Below are positions 27,816 to 63,148 of a stretch of 64,000 bases of DNA, in pieces. Each line of letters opens with the position of its first letter. Position 1 is the first letter of the stretch. The position numbers were made by a program, and so were the translations under genes. The DNA lies in the NCBI RefSeq assembly GCF_003130795.1, contig NZ_CP029352.1:361001-425000 (forward strand). The letters are read 5' to 3'. The DNA comes from Azospirillum thermophilum (lineage in GTDB: Bacteria; Pseudomonadota; Alphaproteobacteria; Azospirillales; Azospirillaceae). Under the pieces are notes generated by a model, which saw nothing but the letters and a program-made list of their open reading frames with translations, searched no databases and had not been told where the DNA came from.

Positions 27816-28231
27816 GACGCTCTCCGGGACAGGCTGAACGACGATGATATGGAGCGGGCGCAGTCATAGCGCGTCCGCGGCGCGAATCCTACCGGCCAAA
27901 TCGCACCGGGTTAATCGGATATTGCCGTGGCGGCCGCCTTCGACGACCCGAAGCGTCCCATTTGGGGAGGCACCCTCCAAGCGTCCAGAGGGCTTCCCCA
28001 AGTGACAGGGAATTTGAATGCCGGAGAAGATTTGTCGGGTGGTCGGAGCGGACCCCGGCAACCTTTGCCGGTAAAGCTCAAGTCGGAAGTAATATCGGCG
28101 CCACAGGGGGTAGCCCTTAAAAATATAAAATTCCAGCGCGAAAGTGAGTCGAGGGCAACACCGATGCTGCCTGGATAGAGGGCAAATGCATCGATATTTG
28201 TTATTCACTTTTTTGAATTGAGGTGATGGCG
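27816..28231. other. Divergent intergenic region with hairpins and A+T-rich end
   Basis: These 416 bases separate ygiQ from the carrier-protein operon. An imperfect hairpin spans about 27962-28006 (TTGGGGAGGC arm against CTTCCCCAA), and a perfect seven-base stem CCGGCAA/TTGCCGG lies near 28056-28072. From about 28110 the sequence is strikingly A+T-rich and ends with ATTCACTTTTTTGAAT just ahead of the ribosome binding site. A structured leader or activator-dependent promoter for the operon is likely; no known riboswitch was recognised. Confidence 0.45.
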
Positions 28232-28558
28232 ATGCGGCAAGACGTATGGCCGGCAGGTGGAGATATGGCAGGCAATCGACAGTCCGATGCGGCTCCGCCA
28301 CTGGCGGATGACATTCGCGCCATCCTGCGGGAAAGCGCCGCCCTGGCGGTCGACCCGGACAGCGTGTCGGACAGTGACGACCTCTATGCGGCCGGGCTGA
28401 CCTCCCACGGCTGCGTCAGCCTGATGCTGGCGCTGGAAGAGCGCTTCGACGTCGAGTTCCCGGAACGGCTGCTGCACCGCCGGACCTTCGAGAGCATCTC
28501 GGCGATCGGGAGCGCGGTGCGCTCGATCTTCGACGAGGCGGGAAGGAACCCGACATGA
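28232..28558 (+). CDS. Acyl/aminoacyl carrier protein (108 aa)
   Basis: A small carrier protein: an N-terminal extension of about 20 residues, then the four-helix ACP fold. The phosphopantetheine attachment site is AAGLTSHGCVSL (Ser58), LTSHG replacing the usual LDSL. DDLYAAGL before it and FDVEFPERLL after it are typical. The ATG at 28232 lies eight bases behind GAGG; starts at 28223 and 28265 are possible. It opens an operon in which the ligase at 29712-30638 is expected to load it with an amino acid on the phosphopantetheine thiol. The stop overlaps the next start (ATGA). Confidence 0.87.
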   Translation: MRQDVWPAGGDMAGNRQSDAAPPLADDIRAILRESAALAVDPDSVSDSDDLYAAGLTSHGCVSLMLALEERFDVEFPERLLHRRTFESISAIGSAVRSIFDEAGRNPT

Positions 28559-29715
28559 GCAGCCTGTCCGCCCTGGCGCGCGAGATCGGGGCCGAGGTCG
28601 CGGCCCGCCACGCCGACGCCGTCGACCGCGACGCCCGCTTCCCGCATGAGGCCTTCGAGGCGCTGAAGTCGCAACGGCTGCTGAGCGCCATGGTCCCCGC
28701 CGATTTCGGCGGTCCCGGAGCCCCGCTGTTCGACATCGCGGCGGCCTGCCACGCGCTGGCGCGGGCCTGCGGGTCGACCGGCATGGTCTACGCCATGCAC
28801 CAGATCCAGGTCGCCTGCCTGGTGAACCATGGCCAGTCGAGCCCCTGGCACCGCGCCCAGCTCGAACGCATCGTTGAGGAGCAGCTTCTGCTGGGCTCCG
28901 CCACCACCGAGGCCGAGACCGGCGGCGACATCCGCAACAGTGTCTGCGCCGTGGTGCCGGACGGCGAGCGCTTCACCCTGCGCAAGAACGCCTCGGTCGT
29001 CTCCTATGGCGACGAGTGCGACATCATCCTGGTGACGGCGCGGCGCAATCCCGAGGCCCCGTCCTCCGATCAGGTCATCGTGCCGCTGACCAAGGAGCAG
29101 TACCGGCTGGAGCAGACGCTGGGCTGGGACTCCATGGGCATGCGCGGCACCCGCTCCAACGGCTATGTCCTGGAGGCCTCGGGCGAGCTGGCGCAGATCA
29201 TGCCGCTGCCCTTCGCCGACATGTCGGCCCAGACCATGCTGCCGACCACCCACATCCTGTGGAGCAGCGTGTGGCTGGGCATCGCCGCCGACGCCGTCAG
29301 CCGGGCGCGCGCCTATGTCCGGCAGGAGGCCAAGCGCAAGCCCGGCACCACCCCGGCCTGCGCCACGCGGCTCGCCGAGGCGGTGACCCTGTTGCAGCAG
29401 ATGAAGGCCAGCGTGCTGACCGCCATCCGCCAGTACGAGCTGGCGGCCGGCTCGCCGGAGCTGCTGAGCTCCCTGTCCTTCGCGACGGCCATGGGCACGC
29501 TGAAGATCACCACGTCGGAGCTGGTGCTGCAGGTCATCGACCGCGCGATCCGCACCTGCGGGCTGGCGGGCTACCGCAACGACACCCCCTACAGCCTGGG
29601 CCGCCACTGGCGCGACGCCCAGTCCGCCGCGCTGATGATCGGCAACGACCGGATCATCGCGCACACCGCCAACCAGCTCCTCGTCCAGAGGGACGGCTCG
29701 GGACCCTTCGAATGA
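28555..29715 (+). CDS. Acyl-CoA-dehydrogenase-family flavoprotein (386 aa)
   Basis: The protein shows the family's helical N-domain with [25 protein letters not shown], a beta-domain with [14 protein letters not shown], and a C-terminal helical bundle ending in [15 protein letters not shown]. It would oxidise a thioester-bound substrate using FAD. Coupling by four-base overlaps to the carrier-protein gene before it and the ligase after it suggests the substrate is the aminoacyl or acyl group on that carrier, as in pathways that desaturate carrier-bound amino acids. No clear Glu base of the classical enzymes was assigned. It could also act as a monooxygenase of the same fold. Confidence 0.85.
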
Positions 29716-30638
29716 CCACCACCGACGTCAAGGACAAGCAAGCCGCCTATCGCGACGAGCTGGTGAAACAGGGTCTGCTGATCCCGACCGGGGTCGACGG
29801 GCTCTATGGCCGCAGCGGCGTGTTCGAGGACGTGATCGAGCGGTTCGACGCCCTGATCACCGTCTGGGGCCGCGGCGACGGCGCGGAAGTGATGCGCTTC
29901 CCGCCCGCGCTGAACCGCCGTGCCTTCGAGCAGAGTGAGTATCTGAAGAGCTTCCCGCATCTGGCCGGCACCATCCACAGCTTCGCCGGCGACGAGCGGG
30001 CCCACCGCACGCTGCTCCGCCGCCTGGAGGAGGGGCAGGACTGGACCGAGGATCAGGTCGCGACCGACGTGGTGATGACGCCGGCCGCCTGCTATCCGGT
30101 CTATCCGACCGTGGCGGCGCGCGGTCCCCTGCCCGGCGAGGGGCGGCTGATCGACGTCTTCTCCTACTGCTTCCGGCACGAGCCGTCGCTGGACCCGGCG
30201 CGCATGCAGCTCTTCCGCATGCGGGAGTACATCCGCATCGGCACGCCCGACCAGGTGATGGAGTTCCGCGAGCTGTGGATCGAGCGCGGCCGTGACCTGA
30301 TCGCCTCGCTCGGCCTGCCGGTCGGCATCGACGTCGCCAACGATCCCTTCTTCGGCCGGGCCGGCAAGATGCTGTCGAGCAGCCAGCGCGACCAGAAGCT
30401 GAAGTTCGAGCTGCTGATCCCGATCACCAGCGAGGAGTCGCCGACCGCCTGCCTCAGCTTCAACTACCACCAGGAGCATTTCGGCCATCTGTGGGACATC
30501 CGCACGGCGGACGGCGAGGTGGCGCATACCGCCTGCGTCGGCTTCGGGATGGAGCGCGTGGCGCTGGCGCTGTTCCGCCATCACGGCTTCGATCCCGCTA
30601 CCTGGCCGGCGCCGGTGAGGGCCGTGCTGTGGGGGTGA
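29712..30638 (+). CDS. Amino acid:[carrier protein] ligase, class II seryl-tRNA-synthetase-like (308 aa)
   Basis: The protein is a truncated class II aminoacyl-tRNA synthetase homologue without a tRNA-binding domain. It matches the described family that activates a small amino acid with ATP and transfers it to a carrier protein. Visible are motif 2-like [23 protein letters not shown], motif 3 with [13 protein letters not shown], and probable zinc ligands Cys127, Glu172 and Cys275 as in the family and in methanogen-type SerRS. The adjacent carrier protein is the likely acceptor. Glycine or alanine is the usual amino acid; which one cannot be read here. It overlaps the dehydrogenase stop by four bases. 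Confidence 0.9.
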
Positions 30639-30648
30639 CGGCCGGGGG

Positions 30649-31608
30649 GTGACGGCCGCCGCCGGGCGGGGGTGGACGGAGCTCGACCCCGCCACCCACC
30701 GGCCGCATGCCCTGCACGCGCCGGAGCGCAACTGGGCCGAGACCAACTGCTACGTCGACCTGTGGATCGAGGCGGTTCATGCGCTGGGGCTGGAGCCGCT
30801 GGCCATGCTGCCCTTCACTGTCGCGCAGGACTTCGAGGGCGACCAGTTCACCTTCTTCAAGGTGCCGCTGGAGGATCTCGAGGCGCTCTACGGCTTCGCG
30901 GTCCAGGAACTGGCGATCTACGACACGGTGGAAGCCCATGTCGTGGAGCAGCTGTCGCGCGGTCGGCTGGTGCTGGTGGAGGTCGACGGCTTTCACCTGC
31001 CCGACACCCGCGGCACCTCCTACGGCACGACCCATGTGAAGACGACGGTGGGCATCACCCGCCTCGACCCGGCGGCGCGGCGGATGGACTATTTCCACAA
31101 CGCCGGCTTCTATCGCCTGGAGGGGGAGGATTACGAGGGGCTGTTCGCCAAGGCGGCCGGTCCGCTCTTCCCCTACGTGGAGTTCGTCAAGCGCCTGTCG
31201 CCGCCGCTGGAAGGGGCGGCGCTGCGCGACCGTTCGCTGGCGCTGCTGCGGCACCACCTTGTCCGGCGGCCGCAGCGCAACCCGATCGGCGCCTTCCGGG
31301 AGGATCTGCCCCGCCACCTGGACGCGCTGGCCAGCCGGCCGATGGAGTACTTTCACCTCCATGCCTTCAACGTCCTGCGGCAGCTGGGCGCCAACTTCGA
31401 CCTGCTGGGCAGCTACGCCGCCTGGATCGACGGCCCGGCGGAGGTGGTCGAGGCCTGCGGCACCATCGGCTCGACCGCCAAGGTACTGCAGTTCCAGTTC
31501 GCCCGGGCCGTCGCGAAGCGGCGCTTCGCCGACTATGGCGAGCTGCTGGGGCGCATGGAAGCCGCCTACGACACGGCGGTCGGCGGGCTCGCCCGCTGTT
31601 ACGGCTGA
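30649..31608 (+). CDS. DUF1839 family protein (319 aa)
   Basis: This conserved protein of unknown activity recurs beside aminoacyl-[carrier protein] ligases. It opens with WTELDPATHRPHALHAPERNWAETNCYVD and has repeated His/Asp-containing segments (VEVDGFHLPDTRGTSYG, MEYFHLHAFNVLRQLGANF). The layout recalls a papain-like or transferase fold and suggests it takes the amino acid from the carrier. Cys at NCYVD near residue 36 and His in FHLPD near 120 are possible catalytic residues, but that is inference. It starts with GTG ten bases behind the ligase stop, preceded by a G-run rather than a clear Shine-Dalgarno site. Confidence 0.85.
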   Translation: MTAAAGRGWTELDPATHRPHALHAPERNWAETNCYVDLWIEAVHALGLEPLAMLPFTVAQDFEGDQFTFFKVPLEDLEALYGFAVQELAIYDTVEAHVVEQLSRGRLVLVEVDGFHLPDTRGTSYGTTHVKTTVGITRLDPAARRMDYFHNAGFYRLEGEDYEGLFAKAAGPLFPYVEFVKRLSPPLEGAALRDRSLALLRHHLVRRPQRNPIGAFREDLPRHLDALASRPMEYFHLHAFNVLRQLGANFDLLGSYAAWIDGPAEVVEACGTIGSTAKVLQFQFARAVAKRRFADYGELLGRMEAAYDTAVGGLARCYG

Positions 31609-31623
31609 CGCGGCGCGGATGCC

Positions 31624-34065
31624 ATGGCACGGATCCGGGAGGTCACCGGACGGCGCGTGACGCCGCTCGCCGACGGGTGGGAGATGACGGTCGGCGGGGA
31701 CGGGCGGTGGATTCCCGCCCCCGTTCCCGGGACCGCCGCGCAGGCGTTGCAGGCTGCCGGCCTGTGGACGCTCGACGCGCCCACGCCGCTGCACGACCGC
31801 GACGTGCTTTACCGCACCCGGCTGAGCGGCGACGGCCCCGGCATCCTGCGCTTCCAGGGCCTCGCCACCCTGGCCGAGGTGACGCTGGACGGGCGACCGA
31901 TCCTCGACTGTGACAGCATGTATCTCAGTCACGACGTGCCGGTGACGCTGGCGGGCGAGGCGCTGCTGGAGATCCGCTTCCGCGCCCTGCATCCGGTTCT
32001 CTCCGGCCGCAAGGGACGCGCCCGCTGGCGGCCGAAGATGATCGAGCCGGCGAGCCTGCGCTTCGCCCGGACCACCCTGCTCGGCCATATGCCCGGCTGG
32101 TGTCCTTCCGTCCACGCGGTCGGTCCCTGGCGGCCGGTTGAGCTGGTCGAGGAGGACGGGCCGGTCCGCGTGCGGGCTGCGGACCTGCGCACCGGCTTCG
32201 ACGGACGGGCCGGCACGCTGTCGTTGACCCTGACGCTGGCCGACACCCCCGGCCGGCTGCCGGCGGAACTGGAGGTCGGCGGCCATGTGCGGACGCTGGA
32301 GTGGCTGGACGACCGGACGCTGCGGGCGGAGGCGGTGCTGCCGGGGATCGAGCCCTGGTGGCCGCACACCCACGGCCGGCCGGCGCTCCACCCGCTGAGC
32401 GTGCGCATCGGCGACTCCCGCGTCGACCTCGGTCGCGTCGGCTTCCGCTCCATCGAGCGGGCCGGCGGGCCGGACGGGCAAGGGTTCGGCCTGCGGATCA
32501 ACGGCGAACCGGTCTTCTGCCGCGGCGCCTGCTGGACCCCTGCCGACATCGTCTCGCTTCCCGGCACGCGGGAGGCCTACGAGCCGATCCTGCGCCGGGT
32601 CGCCGGGGCCGGGATGAACATGGTCCGCGTCGGCGGCACCATGGTCTATGAGAGCGACGCCTTCTTCGAGCTGTGCGACGAGCTGGGAATCCTGGTCTGG
32701 CAGGATTTCATGTTCGCCAATTTCGACTATCCCGCCGATCCGGCCTACCGGGAGTCTGTGCGGGCGGAGGCGGCGCAGTTCCTCGATCGGATACAGGGCT
32801 CGCCCTCGCTTGCCGTGCTGTGCGGCGGCAGCGAGGCGGAGCAGCAGGCCGCCATGCTGGGCCTGCCGCGCGAGGCCTGGAGCCAGCCGGTCTTCACCGA
32901 CATCCTGCCGGGCGAGGCGGCGCGGCTGCGGCCGGACGTCCCCTATGTGACCAACTCGCCGAGCGGGGGGCCGCTGCCCTTCGCGGCCGATGCCGGAGTG
33001 ACCCACTATTACGGCGTCGGCGCCTATCAGCGGCCGCTGGAGGATGCCCGGCGGGCCGGGGTGCGCTTCGCCAGCGAATGCCTCGCCTTCGCCAACGTGC
33101 CGGAGGAGACCGCGGCCGGCGTGCCGGCCGTCCATCATCCCCGCTGGAAGGAGCGGGTGCCGCGCGACCTCGGCGCCTCCTGGGATTTCGAGGATGTGCG
33201 GGACCATTATCTGCAGCGGCTCTACGGGGTGGAGCCCAACCGGCTGCGTTACGAGGATCAGGACCGCTATCTGCGCCTGTCGCGCGCGGTGACGGCGGAG
33301 GTGATGGAGGCGACCTTCGGGGAGTGGCGCCGGGTCGGCTCCTCCTGCGGCGGCGGGCTGGTCTGGCTGCTGCGCGACCTGTGGCCGGGGGCGGGGTGGG
33401 GCGTGCTGGACGCGGCCGGCCGGCCGAAGGCGGCCTGGTACGGGCTGCGCCGCGCCTTCCGTCCTCTGCAGGTGATCCTGACCGACGAGGGGGTGAACGG
33501 CCTTGCCGTCCATCTGCTGAACGAGACGGCGGAGGCGGTTCCGGCGGTGCTGACGCTGACGGCGCTGCGTCATGGCGAGGTCGCCGTGGCGCGGGCGGAA
33601 CGTGCGGTGACCCTGCCGGCGCGCAGCAGTCAGGTGCTGTCCTCGGCGGAGCTGCTCGGCCGCTTCTTCGACTGGACCTACGCCTACCGCTTCGGACCGC
33701 CGGCCCATGACGTGACCGTGGCAATCCTGTCGCAGGCCGGGACGGACGGAACGGCGGCCGGGGAACCGCTGGCCGAGGCGTTTCATTTCCCCAATGGCAG
33801 GGCACTGCCGCGCAGCGACCTCGGGCTCGCAGCGACGGTCGCGCAGGCGGGGGAGGACTGGGTGCTGACGCTGCGGACGCAGCGGCTCGCCTGTTCGGTC
33901 CATGTGGAGGACGAGCGGTTCCGGGCGGAGGACGCTTGGTTCCACCTGCCGCCGGGCAGGGAGCGCCGGCTGCGGCTGTCGCCGCGGGACGGAGGCGGGG
34001 GCGGTGTGCCGGATGGCGAGGTGCATGCGCTGAATGCGCTGGCACCCATCCGCTTCCGGGGGTGA
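31624..34065 (+). CDS. Glycoside hydrolase family 2 protein, beta-mannosidase-like (813 aa)
   Basis: The domain order is that of GH2: a jelly-roll sugar-binding domain (residues 20-170) with FQGLATLAEVTLDG, an immunoglobulin-like domain (170-280), and a TIM barrel (280-590). The acid/base Glu404 is in LCGGSEAEQ and the likely nucleophile Glu485 in FASECLAF, replacing the common NE and SEFG contexts. Further beta domains complete the C-terminus. No signal peptide is present, so it acts in the cytoplasm, unusual for polymer degradation and suggestive of a role on a small glycoside or as a non-classical biosynthetic enzyme. It lies 15 bases behind the DUF1839 gene. Confidence 0.82.
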   Translation: MARIREVTGRRVTPLADGWEMTVGGDGRWIPAPVPGTAAQALQAAGLWTLDAPTPLHDRDVLYRTRLSGDGPGILRFQGLATLAEVTLDGRPILDCDSMYLSHDVPVTLAGEALLEIRFRALHPVLSGRKGRARWRPKMIEPASLRFARTTLLGHMPGWCPSVHAVGPWRPVELVEEDGPVRVRAADLRTGFDGRAGTLSLTLTLADTPGRLPAELEVGGHVRTLEWLDDRTLRAEAVLPGIEPWWPHTHGRPALHPLSVRIGDSRVDLGRVGFRSIERAGGPDGQGFGLRINGEPVFCRGACWTPADIVSLPGTREAYEPILRRVAGAGMNMVRVGGTMVYESDAFFELCDELGILVWQDFMFANFDYPADPAYRESVRAEAAQFLDRIQGSPSLAVLCGGSEAEQQAAMLGLPREAWSQPVFTDILPGEAARLRPDVPYVTNSPSGGPLPFAADAGVTHYYGVGAYQRPLEDARRAGVRFASECLAFANVPEETAAGVPAVHHPRWKERVPRDLGASWDFEDVRDHYLQRLYGVEPNRLRYEDQDRYLRLSRAVTAEVMEATFGEWRRVGSSCGGGLVWLLRDLWPGAGWGVLDAAGRPKAAWYGLRRAFRPLQVILTDEGVNGLAVHLLNETAEAVPAVLTLTALRHGEVAVARAERAVTLPARSSQVLSSAELLGRFFDWTYAYRFGPPAHDVTVAILSQAGTDGTAAGEPLAEAFHFPNGRALPRSDLGLAATVAQAGEDWVLTLRTQRLACSVHVEDERFRAEDAWFHLPPGRERRLRLSPRDGGGGGVPDGEVHALNALAPIRFRG

Positions 34066-34123
34066 GGGACGCGGGGACGGGAACTTGGCGGGCTGCGGAC
34101 AGGCCCGCCTGCAGGGGGATGGA

Positions 34124-35884
34124 ATGAAACCGGTGCCGGTGGTTTTCGAAGGGTGTTTCGGCTGGCTGCATCCGGCGTCGGGCCGGCGCGGCGTGGTGCT
34201 GTGCAGCCCGCACGGCTATGAGGAGCTGTGCGCCCACCGCGCCTGGGGCGGCCTTGCCGCCGGTCTGGCGGCGGCCGGCCTGCCGACGCTGCGCTTCGAC
34301 TATCACGGGCTCGGCGATTCCGCGGGGGAGGACACCGATCCGGCGCGGGTGCGCGCGTGGCTCGACAGTATCCATGCCGCCGTGCGGCGGCTGCGCGAGG
34401 ACACCGGCGTCGACGAGGTGGCGCTGGCCGGCCTGCGGCTGGGCGGGCTGCTCGCGGCGGCGGCGGCGGCGGAAATCGGCGGCATCACCGCGCTGGCGCT
34501 GGTCAGCCCCTTCGTCTCCGGCCGCATGGCGGTGCGCGAGACCCGGGCCTTCGCCCGCATGATGCCGCAGCCCGAGGGGGTGGAGGTCCTGCCGCACCGG
34601 GCCGACGACCTGAACGTTGCCGGCTTCGCCCTGACCGCCGCGACGCGCAACGATCTGGAGCGGATCGACCTGCGCACCCTGGAGGCTGCGCCGGCGCCGC
34701 GCATCCTGCTGCTCGACCGGCCGGAGGCGCGCGCGACGCAGGAACTGGCCGAGCGGCTGCGCGCCCTCGGCGCCGAGGTGGCGGAGGAGGCGATGCCCGA
34801 CGGCTCGGACCTCGTGCGCAAGGTCCAGGCCGGCGACGGCGCGCGCCGCAGCTTCGCCCGCCTCACCGGCTGGCTGGCCGACGGAGCCGAACCGGGCGGC
34901 AGCGTCAGCCTGACCGAGCGGCCAGCCGGCCTGATGATGCCGCATGCCGTCGAGCGGCCGGTCTTCTTCGGCGAGGATGAGGAGCTGTTCGGCATCTACT
35001 GCGCGCCGGTGGTGGCGGACCCGCTGCACGACCGGCCGGCGGTGATCTTCCTCAACAGCGGCGCCACGCACCATATCGGCTCCGGCCGGGCTTGGGTGCT
35101 GCAGGCCCGGCGGCTGGCAGCCAATGGCTATGCCTCGCTGCGCATCGACGTGGCCGGGCTGGGCGACAGCCCGGCGCGTCCCGGCCGGCCGGACAACATC
35201 CTCTATCGCCGGGACACGCAGCCCGACGTGCGCGCGGCCATCGACTGGCTGGAGGAGCAGGGGCACGGGCGCTGCGTCGTCGTCGGGCTCTGCGCCGGGG
35301 CGGCGCAGGCGCTGCACGGGGTGCTCAACGACGGCCGTGGTCCCTGGCGCAACGGCGGCCGGGTGGCCGGCGTCGCGCTGATCAATCCCGGCCGCTTCCG
35401 CCTCGGCGCCGGCGATCATGTCGACGCGGTCCAGCAGTCGGGCATCCACCGTTCGACCGGCGGCTATCTGCGGGAGCTCGGCAAGCCGGACAAGCTGCTG
35501 TCGGTCCTGCGCAACCACCGGCGCGGCGTCCGCCTGGCCAAGCGGCTCGCCGGCCGGCTGGCACAGCGCGCGCTGCAGACGGTCGGGCTCGGCGGCAGCG
35601 TGCCGCGCTGGTTCCAGCGCCTGTCGGCGGAGGGGCGCCGCGTCCTGCTGGTCTACAGCATCGGCGACGTGACGCTGCGCGAGTTCGAGCTGCAGCTCGG
35701 CCGCGATGGCGAGAAGCTGCGCGGCCTGCCCAACGTGACGCTCAGCTATCTGCCGGGCGCCGACCACAGCGTGACCGAATGGGCGGCCCAGGACCGGCTG
35801 GGCGGGCTGCTCGACGAGCTGCTGGCAGCCGTGGACGCGGATGCCGGCGCCAAGCGGGCGCCGGAGGTCCTGCGGTCCGCCTAG
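34124..35884 (+). CDS. Fused double alpha/beta hydrolase with non-serine nucleophile elbows (586 aa)
   Basis: Two complete alpha/beta-hydrolase domains are joined. The first (residues 1-255) has VLCSPHGYEE, LRFDYHGLGDS and an elbow GLRLGG with Arg105 where serine is expected. The second (275-570) has FLNSGATHHIGSGR, LRIDVAGLGDS and the elbow GLCAGA with Cys390. The two domains resemble hydrolases found with exosortase systems, which carry the same substitutions. AGGGGG lies ahead of the ATG at 34124; longer frames overlap the previous gene. The second domain may be a thiol acyltransferase or thioesterase for carrier-bound intermediates. The last codon overlaps the convergent amidohydrolase gene. 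Confidence 0.8.
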   Translation: MKPVPVVFEGCFGWLHPASGRRGVVLCSPHGYEELCAHRAWGGLAAGLAAAGLPTLRFDYHGLGDSAGEDTDPARVRAWLDSIHAAVRRLREDTGVDEVALAGLRLGGLLAAAAAAEIGGITALALVSPFVSGRMAVRETRAFARMMPQPEGVEVLPHRADDLNVAGFALTAATRNDLERIDLRTLEAAPAPRILLLDRPEARATQELAERLRALGAEVAEEAMPDGSDLVRKVQAGDGARRSFARLTGWLADGAEPGGSVSLTERPAGLMMPHAVERPVFFGEDEELFGIYCAPVVADPLHDRPAVIFLNSGATHHIGSGRAWVLQARRLAANGYASLRIDVAGLGDSPARPGRPDNILYRRDTQPDVRAAIDWLEEQGHGRCVVVGLCAGAAQALHGVLNDGRGPWRNGGRVAGVALINPGRFRLGAGDHVDAVQQSGIHRSTGGYLRELGKPDKLLSVLRNHRRGVRLAKRLAGRLAQRALQTVGLGGSVPRWFQRLSAEGRRVLLVYSIGDVTLREFELQLGRDGEKLRGLPNVTLSYLPGADHSVTEWAAQDRLGGLLDELLAAVDADAGAKRAPEVLRSA

Positions 35885-37110
35885 CTCAGCAGCTCCGCCA
35901 CTGCCGCGGCGACGACCAGCGTCGCCTTGCGCAGGTCGTCCAGCTTCAGCTTCTCGTCGGCACGGTGGGCGTTGGCCTCCAGCAGGTCGCGGGGGCCGGC
36001 GCCGTAGAGAACCGTCGGCACGCCGGCCTCCGAATAATGGCGGGCGTCGGTGTAGAGCGGAATGCCGTGCTGGCCGACCGGCACGCCGAGGACCGCTTCG
36101 GCATGGCGGGCGACGAGGTCGGCAAGCCGCGGGGCGTCGCCGACGGGCGCGAAGGGACGGGCGAGAAGGATGCGCCGCACCGTGACGCGGATGCCCGGCA
36201 GGCCGGCGGCGGCCTGCTCGATCAGGCGGCGCAGGCCGGCTTCGACCTCCGCCGGGTTCTCCTCTGGAATCATGCGGCGGTCGAGGCGGAAGGTGACGCG
36301 GTCGGGGACGACGTTGGTGTTGATGCCGCCGTCGATCAGGCCGACGACCAGCGTCGGGCTCTCGATTCCCGTCACCCGGGAGCGCCGCGTTGCGAGCTCC
36401 GGCCGATGGGCGTAAAGGGCGGAGAGGATGGCGGTCGCCGCCTCCAGCGCGTCATGGCCGGTGTCGGGGCGGGCGGCATGGGCCGACTTGCCGTCGACCT
36501 GGACCTCCAGATGCAGGCAGCCGTTGTGGGCGGTCACCACCGAATAGGCGAAGCTGGCGCAGATCGCATAGTCGGGGCGGGAGATGCCCTGTTCGATCAG
36601 CCATTTCGGCCCGATCTCGCCGCCGGCCTCCTCGTCGTAGGTCAGGTGCAGCTCGACCGAGCCCTTCAGTGCCGCTCCGGAGGCGATTAGCGCCTTCAGG
36701 GCGAAGGCATAGGTGGCGAAGTCGGACTTCGACACCGCGACGCCGCGGCCAAACATGAAGCCGTCGCGTACCTCCGCTCCGTAGGGGTCGGCGCTCCACC
36801 CCTCGCCCGGCGGCACCACGTCGCCATGGGCGTTGAGCGCCACCACCGGGCCGTCACCGAAGCGGTGGCGCACCACCAGGTTGGTCGCGCTGATCATGCC
36901 GTTGGCGCGCACCGTCTCCGCCGGGACGGGGTGGCGCTCCACGGTGAAGCCCATCGCCTCCAGCAGCTCGGCCGCGCGGACGGCATGGGCGGCGCAGTCG
37001 CCGGGCGGGTTGTCGGAAGGAACCTTGACCAGCTCCGCCAGGAAACGGGTCTCCTCCTCGAAGGCGGCGTCGATGGCGGCTGCAAGTTTGGTCTGGGACG
37101 GGTCGGTCAT
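35881..37110 (-). CDS. M20 family metallopeptidase/deacylase (ArgE/DapE-like, 409 aa)
   Basis: The two-zinc M20 fold is evident: VALNAHGDVVPPGEGW (His and Asp ligands), the bridging/catalytic Glu pair in LTYDEEAGGE, and the dimerisation domain with GKSAHAARPDTGHDA. A late His ligand lies near LEANAHRADEK. It hydrolyses N-acyl or N-carbamoyl amino acids or short peptides. The ATG at 37110 gives the usual N-terminus; one at 37134 overlaps the upstream stop and is an alternative. It follows the allantoate-type amidohydrolase in one operon, pointing to ureide or N-carbamoyl amino-acid use. Confidence 0.85.
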   Translation of the reverse strand: MTDPSQTKLAAAIDAAFEEETRFLAELVKVPSDNPPGDCAAHAVRAAELLEAMGFTVERHPVPAETVRANGMISATNLVVRHRFGDGPVVALNAHGDVVPPGEGWSADPYGAEVRDGFMFGRGVAVSKSDFATYAFALKALIASGAALKGSVELHLTYDEEAGGEIGPKWLIEQGISRPDYAICASFAYSVVTAHNGCLHLEVQVDGKSAHAARPDTGHDALEAATAILSALYAHRPELATRRSRVTGIESPTLVVGLIDGGINTNVVPDRVTFRLDRRMIPEENPAEVEAGLRRLIEQAAAGLPGIRVTVRRILLARPFAPVGDAPRLADLVARHAEAVLGVPVGQHGIPLYTDARHYSEAGVPTVLYGAGPRDLLEANAHRADEKLKLDDLRKATLVVAAAVAELLS

Positions 37111-37126
37111 CGGTCGCAGGATCCGG

Positions 37127-38380
37127 TCAGGCATGGGGGACGGGAGGGACGAAGTCTTCGACGAAGCGGGCGAGCACGCGTGCCCCGGCCTCGGCATCGG
37201 CGGCGGTGATCCGCTCCGCCGGATTGTGGGAGATGCCGCGCTCGCAGCGGACGAACAGCATCGCGATGGGGCAGAGCGGGGCGACCGCCATGGCGTCGTG
37301 GCCGGCGCCGCTCGGCAGCTCCGGCGCCTCCAGCCCCTCGGCGCGGGCGGCGGCGGCGAGCTGCTCCATCAGCCCGGGATCGCAGGCCACGGCCCCGCTG
37401 TCGTGCAGCACCTCGATGTCGAGCGCCACGGTCCGGCGGTCGGCGATGGCGGCGAGCCGGGCGCGCAGCGCGTCGGCCCGCTCCGCCCGCACGGCATCCC
37501 GGTCGGACCGCAGGTCGATGGTGAAGCGCACCTTGCCGGGGATGACGTTGACGGCGCCCGGCATCGCCTCGATCCGGCCGACGGTGCCGACCAGCCGCTC
37601 GCGGCCGGCGCAGAGATCCTCCACCGCCAGCACCATCTCCGCCGCGGCGGCCAGCGCGTCGCGGCGCAGGGTCATCGGCACCGTCCCGGCATGGCCGGCG
37701 GTGCCGGTCACGGTGACGGAGAAGCGGGTGGCTCCGGCGATGGCGGTGACGACGCCGACCGGCCGGTCCAGCGCCTCCAGCACCGGTCCCTGCTCGATGT
37801 GCAGCTCCACATAGGCCAGCACCTCGTCCGACCGGCGGGCGGCGGTGGCGAGCGCCGCCATGTCGGGCTCCAGGCCGAAGTCGCGCATCGCCTCGCCCAG
37901 CGTGCGGCCCCTGGCGTCGCGCGTCTCCAGGATGGCGGGATCGAGTCCGCCGGTCAGCGCCCGGCTGCCGATCAGGGTGGACTGGAAGCGGGTCCCCTCC
38001 TCGTCGCCGAAGCCGATCACCTCAACCGCGAAGGGCAGGCGGCGTCCGCGGGCCTCCAGGTCGGCGACCACCGCGATGCCGGTCAGGACGCCGAGCATCC
38101 CGTCATATCGGCCGGCGTCGCGTATGGTATCGAGGTGGGAACCGATCATCAGGGCCGGCGCACCCGGACGCTCCCCCTCATAGCGGCCGATCACGTTGCC
38201 GACCGCGTCCTCCCGCACCGTCATTCCGGCCTGCCGCATCCAGGTGCCGACGAGATGGTTGGCACGGCGATGCTCCGGCGTCAGGTAGAGCCGGGTCAGG
38301 CGGCCGGGCTCCTCGCTGATGGTGGCGAGCTCGTCGATGCGCTGGAGCAGCGCCGGGCCGGAGAGCGGGGACTGGGTCAT
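37127..38380 (-). CDS. Zn-dependent hydantoinase/carbamoylase family amidase (allantoate amidohydrolase-like, 417 aa)
   Basis: An M20-type enzyme of the AllC/N-carbamoyl-amino-acid amidohydrolase group. It has GSHLDTIRDAGRYDG (zinc ligands), GFGDEEGTRF with the catalytic Glu pair, and VELHIEQGPVLE. GTAGHAGTVPM lies in the dimerisation domain, and PSGAGHDAMAVA and ISHNPAERIT near the end. The family removes ammonia from allantoate or a carbamoyl group from beta-ureido acids. Which substrate is used cannot be settled here; no other purine-degradation genes are adjacent. It is the first gene of the pair with the M20 deacylase. Confidence 0.87.
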   Translation of the reverse strand: MTQSPLSGPALLQRIDELATISEEPGRLTRLYLTPEHRRANHLVGTWMRQAGMTVREDAVGNVIGRYEGERPGAPALMIGSHLDTIRDAGRYDGMLGVLTGIAVVADLEARGRRLPFAVEVIGFGDEEGTRFQSTLIGSRALTGGLDPAILETRDARGRTLGEAMRDFGLEPDMAALATAARRSDEVLAYVELHIEQGPVLEALDRPVGVVTAIAGATRFSVTVTGTAGHAGTVPMTLRRDALAAAAEMVLAVEDLCAGRERLVGTVGRIEAMPGAVNVIPGKVRFTIDLRSDRDAVRAERADALRARLAAIADRRTVALDIEVLHDSGAVACDPGLMEQLAAAARAEGLEAPELPSGAGHDAMAVAPLCPIAMLFVRCERGISHNPAERITAADAEAGARVLARFVEDFVPPVPHA

Positions 38381-61391: not shown

Positions 61392-61783
61392 CCGTGTGCG
61401 CCCAGCATGGGCGCGTTCTTGAGGGTGTAAGTCCCTCCGTAAGCTGGTCACGGCGAACGAAGAGAAGCGCAACTGCGGAAGGGCAACCGACCGTGGGAAG
61501 GAAGCGTGGATCGCAGCTGCGGGCCGATGAACAAGAACCGGATATGAGGCGGTGCCGACCAGGGCGAGCGGGCATGGAACCGCGAAGCTCTTGTGACCAA
61601 GGGTCGGTGGCGTAAATCCGGCGGTCGTGCAGCGAAGGAACGCGTTCTTACCTGGGGAGATCCCGCCTTGCGCCTGAAAGGGCGACGGCGTCGAGCCGGA
61701 GCGGGAAGTCAGCAGAGGCCATAGTAGGCGAGGCGCGAGCCGGACCGAAGGGCCGAACGAGGGAGAATGGAGTCCACCCGACG

Positions 61784-63148
61784 ATGCGTGAGGCCATGCG
61801 TCAGATGCCGGAGCGATCCGGGAGGCGGGAGAGGAGGACGGGTGAAGCCCGTCCGGAGGCCCGTCTTGACGAAGCCGAGCGCCCGCGCCGGGACACGGAC
61901 GCCATGGGGCCGGGGCTGCTGGATGCGGTCCTGGCGCGAGAGAACCTTCTGCGAGCGTTGAGGAAGGTGCGGGCCAACGGGGGTGCAGCGGGAGTGGACG
62001 GCCTGGACATCGACCAGACCGCCGCACTGCTGAAGAGCCGCTGGCCGGCGATCCGCGACAGCCTGCGGGAGGGGACGTACCGGCCGCAGCCGGTGCGTCG
62101 CGTGATGATCCCGAAACCTGGGGGTGGCGAGCGCGCACTCGGCATTCCCCCGGTGACGGACCGCCTGATCCAACAGGCGATGCTGCAAGTTCTCCAGCCG
62201 ATCCTCGATCCCGGCTTCAGCGACCACAGTTACGGCTTCCGTCCCGGCCGGAGTGCGCACGACGCCGTCCTTGCGGCGCAAAGCTTCGTGCAGTCCGGCC
62301 GGCGGATCGTCGTGGATGTGGACCTGGAGAAGTTCTTCGACCGGATCGACCATGACCTTCCGATCGACCGTCTGTCCAAGAGGGTCCCGGACCCGGCCAT
62401 CATCCGGCTGGTGCGGGCCTACCTGGATGCCGGCGTCATGGAGGACGATGGGGCGGTCGCACGGCGTCGGACGGGCTCCCCGCAAGGGGGACCGCTGTCG
62501 CCGCTGCTGGCCAATCTGATCCTGGACGAGGTGGACAAGGAACTGGAACGCCGGGGCCATGCCTTCTGCCGCTACGCCGACGACTGCAACGTCCATGTGC
62601 GGTCGCGTCGGGCGGGAGAGCGGGTGATGGCCCTGCTGCGGCGCCTCCATGGCCGGTTGCACCTGACGGTGAACGAAGCCAAGAGCGCCGTGGCCCCCGT
62701 CTTCGGCCGCAAATTCCTCGGCTATGCCTTCTGGGCCGGACCGAAGGGAGAGGTCAGGCGGAGGGTCGCCGACAAGGCGATCACGGCGTTCAAGGACCAC
62801 ATCCGCGACCTGACGCCCCGGCTGACGGGACGGTCGATGGCCGCGGTGGTGGCGAGGCTGCGCGATTTCCTGCTGGGCTGGAAAGCCTACTTCCGACTGG
62901 CGCAAACTCCAAAGGTCCGGCGAACGCTGGACGAATGGATACGCCACCGGCTGCGGGCCATTCAGCTCAAGCAGTGGAAGCGGGGGAAGACCATCTTCCG
63001 GGAACTGACGGCCAGAGGGGCCAAGCCCGCCGTCGCCCAACAAATCGCGGCCAATGGCCGACGCTGGTGGGGCAACAGCGGCAAGCTTCTCAATGCAGTC
63101 CTCACGATCAAACGGGCAGACCAACTCGGACTGCCCAGGCTCGCATGA
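61784..63148 (+). CDS. ltrA: Group II intron reverse transcriptase/maturase (454 aa)
   Basis: The intron-encoded protein helps splicing and copies the intron into DNA. Reverse-transcriptase blocks are complete: YRPQPVRRVMIPKPGGGERALGIP, VVDVDLEKFFDRIDHD, GSPQGGPLSPLLANLILDEVD, and the active site CRYADDCN near residue 265. The maturase X domain (FRLAQTPKVRRTLDEWIRHRL) follows and the end is WWGNSGKLLNAVLTI. No HNH endonuclease domain is present, as expected for IIC-like introns. The N-terminal 40 residues are highly charged. Confidence 0.93.
   Translation: MREAMRQMPERSGRRERRTGEARPEARLDEAERPRRDTDAMGPGLLDAVLARENLLRALRKVRANGGAAGVDGLDIDQTAALLKSRWPAIRDSLREGTYRPQPVRRVMIPKPGGGERALGIPPVTDRLIQQAMLQVLQPILDPGFSDHSYGFRPGRSAHDAVLAAQSFVQSGRRIVVDVDLEKFFDRIDHDLPIDRLSKRVPDPAIIRLVRAYLDAGVMEDDGAVARRRTGSPQGGPLSPLLANLILDEVDKELERRGHAFCRYADDCNVHVRSRRAGERVMALLRRLHGRLHLTVNEAKSAVAPVFGRKFLGYAFWAGPKGEVRRRVADKAITAFKDHIRDLTPRLTGRSMAAVVARLRDFLLGWKAYFRLAQTPKVRRTLDEWIRHRLRAIQLKQWKRGKTIFRELTARGAKPAVAQQIAANGRRWWGNSGKLLNAVLTIKRADQLGLPRLA

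Follow-up and report, generated by a model that had tools for sequence, protein, structure and literature searches.

To our knowledge, the tRNA-synthetase-derived aminoacyl-[carrier protein] ligases, on record since 2010, have no established product. Mocibob is reported to have described such amino acid:[carrier protein] ligases and the Agrobacterium tumefaciens Atu2571-Atu2574 neighbourhood in 2010 and 2013 (cited in PMC5370406). Other systems modify the cell surface with amino acids: Vibrio Alm glycylates lipid A, and Dlt D-alanylates teichoic acid. The pathway that we propose below would resemble Alm and Dlt in passing a carrier-bound amino acid to a cell-surface glycan or glycolipid. Both use another ligase family and other transferases, and form an ester where we presume an amide.

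Nearly the same pathway as ours was predicted in 2010 for an Agrobacterium operon, whose neighbourhood comprises a redox enzyme, a glycosidase and a conserved uncharacterised ORF, with liposaccharide genes adjacent (PMC2922099). A further parallel is lincosamide synthetase which, as set out in PMC4351081, combines stand-alone amino acid activation with a carrier.

The operon and its conservation

Here, we analyse a window of 64,000 nucleotides from Azospirillum thermophilum. It contains a packed run of six genes on the + strand (28232-35884), with intergenic spacings, in gene order, of -4, -4, +10, +15 and -32:

28232..28558, + strand: free aminoacyl carrier protein (CP), phosphopantetheine Ser58 in GLTSHG (PF00550, PRK07081.1)
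28555..29715, + strand: acyl-CoA-dehydrogenase-fold flavoprotein (PF02771, PF00441)
29712..30638, + strand: amino acid:[carrier protein] ligase, homologous to the SerRS catalytic core, with Zn ligands C127/E172/C275 (NF005479, 4h2w/3mey)
30649..31608, + strand: DUF1839, papain-fold, like CcbD/CtaG/AziU2-U3; C34, H129, H150 (PF08893, AF2 model)
31624..34065, + strand: GH2_14-like GH2 enzyme with acid/base motif S403-E404 and nucleophile E485 (PF22666, PF17753)
34034..35884, + strand: tandem alpha/beta hydrolase (ABH), nucleophile missing in the N half (GLRLG), Cys-Asp-His triad in the C half (TIGR03101/TIGR03100, below cut-off)

Coordinates and family matches agree with the initial annotation, which had described the same six genes. 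A sigma-70 promoter search returned no hit, with 0.3 expected. Downstream, at 35881-38380, genes for an M20 deacylase and a carbamoylase lie in convergent orientation. The deacylase gene recurs in nine Azospirillum loci, and the carbamoylase gene in 11 plus one non-Azospirillum locus. Because of this orientation and their recurrence almost solely in Azospirillum, we left both outside the unit. A role in defence was also considered and rejected: four of the five proteins checked with PADLOC had no match, and the GH2 enzyme matched a single CARF/beta-galactosidase-type model at 44 bits.

Conservation was assessed in the best 80 of 443 related stretches, so that the sample leans to close relatives. 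Residue counts refer to loci L003-L082 wherever the alignment covers the residue, leaving out the window copies (L001, L084). Genes in these loci were called by a codon-usage score, with some spurious ORFs remaining and some genes missed. The initial annotation had suggested a survey of the neighbourhood, in which absent co-occurrence would have counted against a conserved unit around the ligase. The survey found such a unit: CP, flavoprotein, ligase, DUF1839 and GH2 are adjacent and in the same order in 70 of these best 80 loci. Moreover, DUF1839 and a GH2 ortholog are present in the same five of 385 alphaproteobacterial genomes, in one of which they lie on separate contigs. Six of the seven loci (among the best 80 of 443) that lack GH2 nearby carry it elsewhere in the genome. 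The shared gene order, together with the joint presence of DUF1839 and GH2 in the same five genomes, indicates a grouping beyond chance. With five of 385 alphaproteobacterial genomes the distribution is patchy; the ligase family turned up in records whose names place them in the Alpha-, Beta- and Gammaproteobacteria and the Myxococcaceae, MAGs among them.

Carrier, ligase and flavoprotein

The carrier scores 31.8 bits against PF00550 and 97.6 bits against NCBIfam PRK07081.1 (cut-off 72). Its top PDB matches, at 65 bits each, are 4h2w_C ('Aminoacyl carrier protein') and 2jq4 ('Hypothetical protein Atu2571'); the carrier of 4h2s is matched at 22.5 bits. Ser58 is kept in all 76 covering loci of the best 80 of 443. 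Translation may begin at 28223, 28232 or 28265.

The ligase reaches 526.1 bits against NCBIfam NF005479, 'amino acid--[acyl-carrier-protein] ligase', and so passes the equivalog cut-off of 357. In the PDB it matches 4h2w (E 2.4e-102) and 3mey (E 3.8e-99). Each of the zinc ligands named in the initial annotation (Cys127, Glu172, Cys275) is conserved in 80/80 loci (best 80 of 443); once distant homologs are included, Asp replaces Glu172 in one row. For relatives of this ligase, loading of Gly or Ala is reported (PMC5370406). Linkage to DUF1839 marks one ligase clade. A distant SerRS-type ligase, at L119, is flanked by an MBOAT acyltransferase and a carrier-like protein.

The locus thus resembles Atu2571-Atu2574 of A. 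tumefaciens in its carrier, which is close to Atu2571, and in its ligase family, NF005479. Unlike in the Agrobacterium neighbourhood, liposaccharide genes were not seen beside the Azospirillum copies. From the gene order we infer that Atu2574 is DUF1839. In the literature searched, Atu2573 appears only in a hub-gene list, and we found no paper tying the ligase to Bradyrhizobium, exopolysaccharide, an exosortase or a flippase.

In the flavoprotein, the N- and C-terminal acyl-CoA dehydrogenase domains score above their cut-offs and the middle domain below (24.4 versus 33.3). The usual catalytic Glu of acyl-CoA dehydrogenases, in the C-terminal YEG motif, is absent from this position in all 76 covering loci (Ile in 66, Val in 10; from the best 80 of 443), though other positions may supply the base. 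DnmZ, an N-oxygenase, is among the nine top profile matches. The flavoprotein is predicted to oxidise the aminoacyl group held on the carrier.

DUF1839 and the GH2 enzyme

DUF1839 matches PF08893 at E 8.5e-127, and its AF2 model has a pLDDT of 94.0 and a pTM of 0.92. All 19 Foldseek matches of this model in the PDB at E<=0.001 are AziU2/U3, CtaG or CcbD. Query-normalised TM-scores are 0.54-0.59 for CcbD, 0.60-0.62 for CtaG and 0.51-0.56 for AziU2/U3; overall they are moderate (0.49-0.64), and the lowest E-values belong to AziU2/U3, not CcbD. These nearest folds come from antibiotic pathways. At the level of sequence, the DUF1839 profile found nothing in the PDB at E<=1, and another PDB sequence search gave a single chance match (E 0.97); CcbD entries are present in the fold library. 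Profile comparison did not bring out any kinship with BtrH: hhalign gave a probability of 4.7% for an alignment of seven of the nine fetched BtrH_N loci (L138 and L139 left out), with 0.2% for the unrelated control A3.

C34, H129 and H150 of DUF1839 are invariant in 77/77 covering loci (from the best 80 of 443). Compared at whole-chain level, the third residue differs from the Cys-His-Glu triad of the CcbD/LmbD type; a Cys-Thr/Ser-His triad is assigned in PMC10318531. For CcbD itself, PMC12945683 describes a Cys enzyme that depends on a CP, follows a ping-pong mechanism and couples proline with an amino sugar. Judging from the modelled fold, DUF1839 is likely the joining enzyme, a predicted aminoacyl-CP:amino-sugar N-aminoacyltransferase. 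The initial annotation had read the product from the GH2 enzyme and the hydrolase; a sugar conjugate still appears likely, while the joining step would now fall to DUF1839 through its match to CcbD, CtaG and AziU2-U3.

The GH2 enzyme scores above cut-off for PF22666 (48.1 bits) and PF17753 (22.9 bits), and its PDB relatives are beta-mannosidases (top score 198 bits). S403, E404 and E485 are present in 71/71 covering loci of the best 80 of 443. As in the GH2_14 enzymes BmGH2_14 and SdGH2_14, Ser-Glu replaces Asn-Glu, a likeness at the level of motifs. A small residue at the beta-mannosidase Trp position may be a further common trait, and, as in GH2_14, no signal peptide is visible by eye in the window enzyme. 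At this position near C2/C3, His or Trp in others, the window enzyme has Gly; among 73 loci it is Gly in 34, Pro in 22, Ser in 13 and Ala in four. GH2_14 has been described with the Ser-Glu motif and a wider pocket; of two members assayed by others, which act as slow pNP-beta-galactosidases and are inactive on mannobiose and mannotriose, one showed weak activity on two galactosides (PMC12243196). In CsxA, which cleaves glucosamine units, a Ser precedes the acid/base Asp (PMC6566704).

Proposed pathway and its alternatives

Taken together, we propose with moderate confidence that the operon specifies a route by which an amino sugar is N-aminoacylated with the help of a carrier protein; its catalytic steps, acceptor and product are our inference. 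The ligase would use ATP to activate a small amino acid, Gly or Ala going by its family, and load it onto the free CP. The flavoprotein may then act on the tethered aminoacyl group, by oxidation or N-oxygenation. Next, the group would pass to Cys34 of DUF1839 and from there to a sugar amino group, as with CcbD in lincosamide biosynthesis. The acceptor sugar would most likely sit within a glycan precursor, lipid-linked or nucleotide-linked, that is destined for export; none of the genes seen to be fixed to the operon is an acceptor-sugar gene. The hydrolase pair may cooperate with a Wzx export step. In the cytoplasm, the GH2_14-like enzyme could cleave a beta-glycoside whose sugar bears a substituent at C2, either for trimming or to clear faulty intermediates. 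Counting against the scheme are the moderate TM-scores with lower E-values for AziU2/U3 than for CcbD, the missing sequence link of DUF1839 to BtrH or the PDB, the galactosidase activity of the assayed GH2_14 members and the lack of a fixed acceptor-sugar gene.

This scheme parallels lincosamide synthetase (LmbC/CcbC, LmbN-CP/CcbZ-CP, LmbD/CcbD) in its stand-alone activation, its carrier and a DUF1839-fold enzyme for coupling the aminoacyl group with an amino sugar. In contrast, lincosamide synthetase activates by an NRPS-type A-domain and the Azospirillum operon by a SerRS-derived ligase. The latter has an extra flavoprotein, GH2 and hydrolase, and its DUF1839 matches no PDB sequence. More tentatively, a class II tRNA-synthetase derivative may here stand in for an NRPS adenylation domain and supply a CcbD-fold transferase, in a widespread system that would amide-link oxidised glycyl or alanyl groups to amino sugars in a polysaccharide exported by Wzx. 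In the literature searched, we met this way of decorating glycans only as a prediction.

The ABH raises a different possibility. Its conserved part starts at about 34124, which may be the true start. The N half scores 100.5 bits against TIGR03101 (cut-off 202.75) and the C half 96.9 bits against TIGR03100 (cut-off 168.45). The protein thus resembles exosortase-A-associated hydrolases 2 and 1, fused in one chain and, in some genera, near polysaccharide genes, but at about half of the family cut-offs, neither of which it passes. The initial annotation had called it a double hydrolase. The tandem architecture holds, but there is only one Cys-Asp-His site; where a nucleophile would be expected in the N half, 61/64 loci (from the best 80 of 443) have neither Ser nor Cys. 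The triad C390/D515/H548, numbered from the Met at 34124, does not vary among 30 aligned rows.

In two genomes without DUF1839 and the GH2 ortholog, ABH is nevertheless present, alongside ligase and CP in G131 and alongside the ligase in G316; the flavoprotein was not seen in the 19-kb stretches of either. ABH, rather than DUF1839, could therefore be the key transferase. Its C half would act on the CP as an aminoacyl transferase or releasing thioesterase, DUF1839 would be an amidase or editing enzyme, and the product would be an aminoacyl ester on a polysaccharide hydroxyl, in the fashion of Dlt. The invariant triad, two fusions of ABH to a Wzx-like domain and the setting of L119 are in keeping with this. 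Against it stand the linkage of DUF1839 to one ligase clade, the invariance of its catalytic-type residues, and CcbD, one of its nearest folds, which is CP-dependent and amide-forming. The AF2 model of ABH (pLDDT 87.5) gave 968 Foldseek matches at E<=0.001; the 50 listed are mostly general lipases and esterases covering about half of the protein, and so are uninformative; such matches, too, count against this reading. We consider this route unlikely.

For amide formation by DUF1839, the destination of the product is suggested by the neighbourhood in other genera. A Wzx-like flippase gene accompanies ABH in 22 of the best 80 of 443 loci, directly upstream in 18, one gene off in three and fused in one; the second fusion lies outside the 80. 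Wzx, Wzz or glycosyltransferase genes flank the unit in some genera. These ties of ABH to polysaccharide flippases point to a surface glycan. No Wzx of the searched kinds was found in the fetched stretches of the remaining 58 of the 80, all Azospirillum included, in 18 further stretches (several with the unit or its GH2-ABH part) or in L134-L136, and one Wzx query had no match in the window's own genome. The case for a glycan therefore comes from certain other genera.

The initial annotation had suggested an amino-acid-glycoside or a small metabolite. An amino acid-sugar conjugate remains likely, and the flippase ties in some genera favour a surface glycan over a small molecule. A small diffusible glycoside or antibiotic-like conjugate, akin to a lincosamide, would suit the patchy distribution and the nearest DUF1839 folds, which belong to antibiotic pathways. 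It would also suit plasmid copies: of 59 plasmid records with DUF1839, four were examined, and in those of Azospirillum lipoferum, Mycetohabitans and Caballeronia the annotation shows no gene for polysaccharide assembly directly beside the unit. An ArnT-type gene lies about 7 kb from the unit in the Mycetohabitans copy, and pelG about 11.5 kb away in that of Caballeronia. However, in the genera examined the unit has no recurrent partner among exporters, resistance genes or regulators, and the flanking Wzx, Wzz and glycosyltransferase genes, like the liposaccharide genes noted in PMC2922099, speak for a polymer. We regard a small product as rather doubtful. Lastly, an NRPS-like peptide route, with DUF1839 condensing a pair of aminoacyl units and GH2 a mere bystander, is highly improbable: ligase and CP do resemble a stand-alone A-T pair, with Gly/Ala loading reported for the family, but the six genes include no condensation domain or second ligase, and GH2, co-inherited even when unlinked, would have no role.

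Given the prediction of 2010, this kind of operon is already known, though uncharacterised; what the initial annotation put forward as a candidate new biosynthetic system is an uncharacterised conserved unit. Our analysis adds to that prediction the CcbD-type fold, the match to GH2_14, the tie to flippases and a measure of co-inheritance. With a candidate transferase that has a structurally solved counterpart, a candidate acceptor class and, in some genera, an export partner, an orphan family becomes a testable pathway. If true, this would tie enzymes that stem from translation to the glycan chemistry of soil and plant-associated bacteria.

Conservation and co-inheritance of the unit

Domain and family profile searches locate all six genes that the initial annotation had assigned to one operon of the window (28232-35884):

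28232-28558, + strand: carrier protein (CP)
28555-29715, + strand: acyl-CoA-dehydrogenase-like flavoprotein
29712-30638, + strand: SerRS-derived amino acid:[CP] ligase
30649-31608, + strand: DUF1839 protein
31624-34065, + strand: GH2 enzyme
34034-35884, + strand: double alpha/beta hydrolase

The successive genes are spaced by -4, -4, +10, +15 and -32 nt. Two further features were recorded in the window:

35881-38380, convergent to the operon: M20 deacylase and allantoate amidohydrolase-type genes, which adjoin it in 9 and in 11 Azospirillum loci, respectively
61477-63148: group II intron RNA (D1D4-3; D1D4-1 at threshold), then a 454-aa ORF, from RNA matches and an ORF call

Gene presence was scored in the best 80 of 443 stretches found, at thresholds of 60 bits (45 for the CP). 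The ligase occurs in 80 loci, DUF1839 in 77, the CP and the flavoprotein in 76 each, GH2 in 73 and the hydrolase in 64. The conserved co-occurrence on which the initial annotation hinged is borne out for the first five genes, which are complete in 70 of the 80 loci. The hydrolase is their direct neighbour in 47 loci, on the same strand in 34 and convergent in 13; in 17 it lies at another place in the fetched stretch, and 16 show no hydrolase there.

Ten loci lack at least one of the five genes. A contig end near the ligase truncates L037, L048, L069 and L079; L020, L023, L025 and L042 hold the first four genes only; L060 has CP and ligase, and L035 the ligase alone. For six of the seven loci L020, L023, L025, L042, L060, L069 and L035, a GH2 ortholog lies elsewhere in the genome, the exception being L069. 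In the MAG of L035, the GH2 is part of a complete unit that lies on a different contig (L049, identical to L128). Three of the four-gene genomes carry a second small operon of GH2 and hydrolase (L123-L125); the hydrolase was not called in the fourth (L126). In the L060 genome, flavoprotein, DUF1839, GH2 and hydrolase are grouped (L127), apparently ~29 kb away on the same contig. An OpgC-like membrane acyltransferase gene (PF10129; L125 5143-6378) lies ~1.2 kb upstream of one separate GH2-hydrolase pair.

DUF1839 is also found in 59 of 72,556 plasmid records. All four inspected carry CP, flavoprotein, ligase, DUF1839 and GH2 in that order. The hydrolase adjoins them in two and is flippase-fused, one gene further, in one; no double hydrolase is annotated near the Caballeronia plasmid copy.

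We then consider an unbiased sample of 385 alphaproteobacterial genomes. It overlaps with the 80 loci, because the ligases of G186 and L025 are identical and both apparently come from one genome. DUF1839 and strong GH2 matches (at least 53% identity, >800 bits) occur in the same five genomes, with a chance probability of 1.5e-11 when kinship is ignored (4 genera, 3 families); two more GH2 matches are at 29% identity. The ligase is above cut-off in 10 genomes and at E<=0.001 in 19. The hydrolase (E<=1e-40) is found in eight: all five with DUF1839, two with a ligase but no DUF1839 (G131, G316), and the fragment G147, where no ligase lies within the stretch examined. The CP is present in the stretches of G000 (the window's own genome), G186 and G283. 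G280 and G358 have the other five genes, but no CP was called in their stretches. In a ligase tree of 98 rows (root for drawing only), the 85 DUF1839-linked ligases group together. The only unlinked rows among them are L060, with its split unit, and L069, at a contig end; ligases without DUF1839 (L035, L111-L115) fall outside.

Ligase, carrier and flavoprotein

The window's ligase clears the NCBIfam cut-off, and its residues 22-306 align with a crystallised amino acid:CP ligase in a PDB sequence search. Its top matches among the best 80 of 443 are 84-88% identical, every one from Azospirillum. The zinc ligands proposed initially (Cys127, Glu172, Cys275) are unchanged in 80/80 loci. The closest solved relatives of the CP are 4h2w_C and the Agrobacterium carrier Atu2571 (65 bits each), with the carrier of 4h2s at 22.5 bits.

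More distant ligases keep other company. A second homolog in the window's own genome (L116, on contig C3 of G000; 35% identity) shares its stretch with ornithine-cyclodeaminase-like and 3-hydroxyacyl-CoA-dehydrogenase-like genes. At L119 (8065-11118; 33% identity) an MBOAT acyltransferase and, by eye, a small carrier-like protein flank the ligase; this make-up resembles Dlt, but the ligase is of a different kind. L122 (8373-11787; 30% identity) suggests N-oxidised carrier-bound amino acids, because it groups the ligase with an AurF-type N-oxygenase and a nitronate monooxygenase, beside a carrier-like protein (by eye). Flavoprotein-ligase pairs without DUF1839 occur at L113 (8828-16613) and L114 (6697-11189); nearby genes encode a Cys/Met-metabolism PLP enzyme and homoserine O-succinyltransferase (by Pfam in L113, by sequence start only in L114).

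The flavoprotein falls among acyl-CoA dehydrogenases (Pfam, PDB). Where such enzymes normally carry the catalytic Glu, 76/76 loci have Ile or Val. Ordinary dehydrogenases are among its nine top profile matches, as are DnmZ and two 'FAD-dependent oxidoreductases' (3m9v, 4kcf) that act as N-oxygenases of amino sugars. From its sequence, it may catalyse dehydrogenation or oxygenation; monooxygenation was guessed for the redox enzyme of a related operon, as described in PMC2922099.

DUF1839 and GH2

DUF1839 is the candidate joining enzyme. Its AlphaFold2 model (37 sequences) has a mean pLDDT of 94.0 and a pTM of 0.92. A fold search against 350,542 PDB chains gave 19 matches at E<=0.001 (TM 0.49-0.64), by rising E-value AziU2/U3 (3), CtaG (8) and CcbD (8); the next match has an E-value of 0.06, and cathepsins rank lower still. 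By fold, the model would link DUF1839 to these three. CtaG forms amides in closthioamide biosynthesis. AziU2/U3 works in azinomycin biosynthesis and is, to our knowledge, not an amide synthase; the reaction of DUF1839 is therefore not fixed by fold alone. Sequence comparison finds no relation to BtrH and no relative among PDB chain sequences. C34, H129 and H150 are unchanged in 77/77 loci, all of which have Thr or Ser at position 132. In the model, C34 lies at a helix start and H129 immediately before a long strand. Papain-like enzymes have their Cys at a helix start and their His just before a long strand. DUF1839 has been assigned to the papain-like superfamily, with Cys-(Thr/Ser)-His as its triad, and a role on glycans at the cell wall has been suggested for it (PMC10318531). 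In contrast, a Cys-His-Glu triad is described for the CP-dependent CcbD/LmbD, which attach proline to a thiooctose at its amino group by a ping-pong mechanism (PMC12945683) and are stated to have had no sequence relatives as of 2015 (PMC4351081).

The nearest solved structures of GH2 are beta-mannosidases (top 198 bits). Its acid/base motif is Ser-Glu in 71/71 loci, and in 73/73 the Trp of beta-mannosidases is replaced by Gly, Pro, Ser or Ala. GH2_14 is described by Ser-Glu and by Gly in place of this Trp; few members have signal peptides, and the authors suggest that substituted substrates may fit (PMC12243196). By eye, the window's GH2 has no signal peptide. Two GH2_14 members are described as slow pNP-beta-galactosidases, one also weakly active on lacto-N-tetraose and beta-1,6-galactobiose, with no activity reported for either on mannobiose or mannotriose (PMC12243196). 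In the GH2 glucosaminidase CsxA, Ser468 precedes the acid/base residue Asp469 (PMC6566704). We infer that the substrate is a C2-substituted sugar, probably amino or N-aminoacyl, which the GH2_14 galactosidase activity does not show.

The hydrolase, surface glycans and the proposed pathway

In the N half of the hydrolase, the nucleophile position lacks Ser or Cys in 61 of 64 loci and is Ser in three; in the C half, Cys, Asp and His are kept in all covering loci (57, 56 and 56). Fold matches are general lipases/esterases, and matches to exosortase-A-associated hydrolase profiles stay below cut-offs. L112 (5455-10371) combines CP, ligase and double hydrolase, and L115 ligase and hydrolase; DUF1839 and GH2 orthologs are absent from both genomes, and the flavoprotein from both stretches. 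This arrangement ties the hydrolase to the aminoacyl-CP itself.

A single protein of Rhizobium sp. NLR16a (L108) combines the hydrolase with a flippase domain (PF13440, residues 30-327; 22.8 bits against MOP flippase NF007773, far under cut-off), a layout also seen in L081. Wzx-like genes occur in 22 of the 80 loci, always on the hydrolase strand: immediately upstream of it in 18, separated by a GH5 gene in three (gene calls in L038 and L072; a gap and a GH5 match in L039) and fused in one. Going by record titles, these loci come from Bosea, Pannonibacter, Stappia, Roseibium, Mesorhizobium and Rhizobium; as many are Bosea, there are fewer independent cases than loci. Group 4 glycosyltransferase relatives are found in 23/80 loci for each of two queries, Wzz in 17/80, and a Wzy-like protein in 16/80, so labelled from place, size and hydrophobic start, with no Pfam family matched. 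Among the 80 loci, those of Azospirillum hold no Wzx of the searched kind. Wzx, Wzz and Wzy queries matched nothing in 18 further stretches, several carrying the unit, which gave one weak glycosyltransferase match. Around the A. lipoferum 4B copy, glycosidases and an ABC transporter are annotated, and no polysaccharide-assembly gene; an alpha-galactosidase, a GH1 beta-glucosidase and the transporter lie upstream of that unit (L107 3471-8284). A cluster resembling the GH1 beta-glucosidase is found again in 8 Azospirillum loci and one resembling the ABC transporter in 7, but neither adjoins the window's copy.

The candidate for a 'new biosynthetic system' in the initial annotation is a real, conserved and uncharacterised biosynthetic unit. 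Its core idea, an aminoacyl-CP pathway to a sugar, is not new, since nearly the same pathway was predicted in 2010 for a related Agrobacterium operon (PMC2922099). In the literature searched, mostly titles and abstract openings of open-access papers, we met no mention of a CcbD-type fold for DUF1839 or of the match to GH2_14, nor of a fusion between Wzx and the hydrolase or of co-inheritance at split loci. With moderate confidence, we propose that the unit most likely constitutes a CP-dependent pathway for amino-sugar aminoacylation, which would serve a surface glycan in some genera at least.
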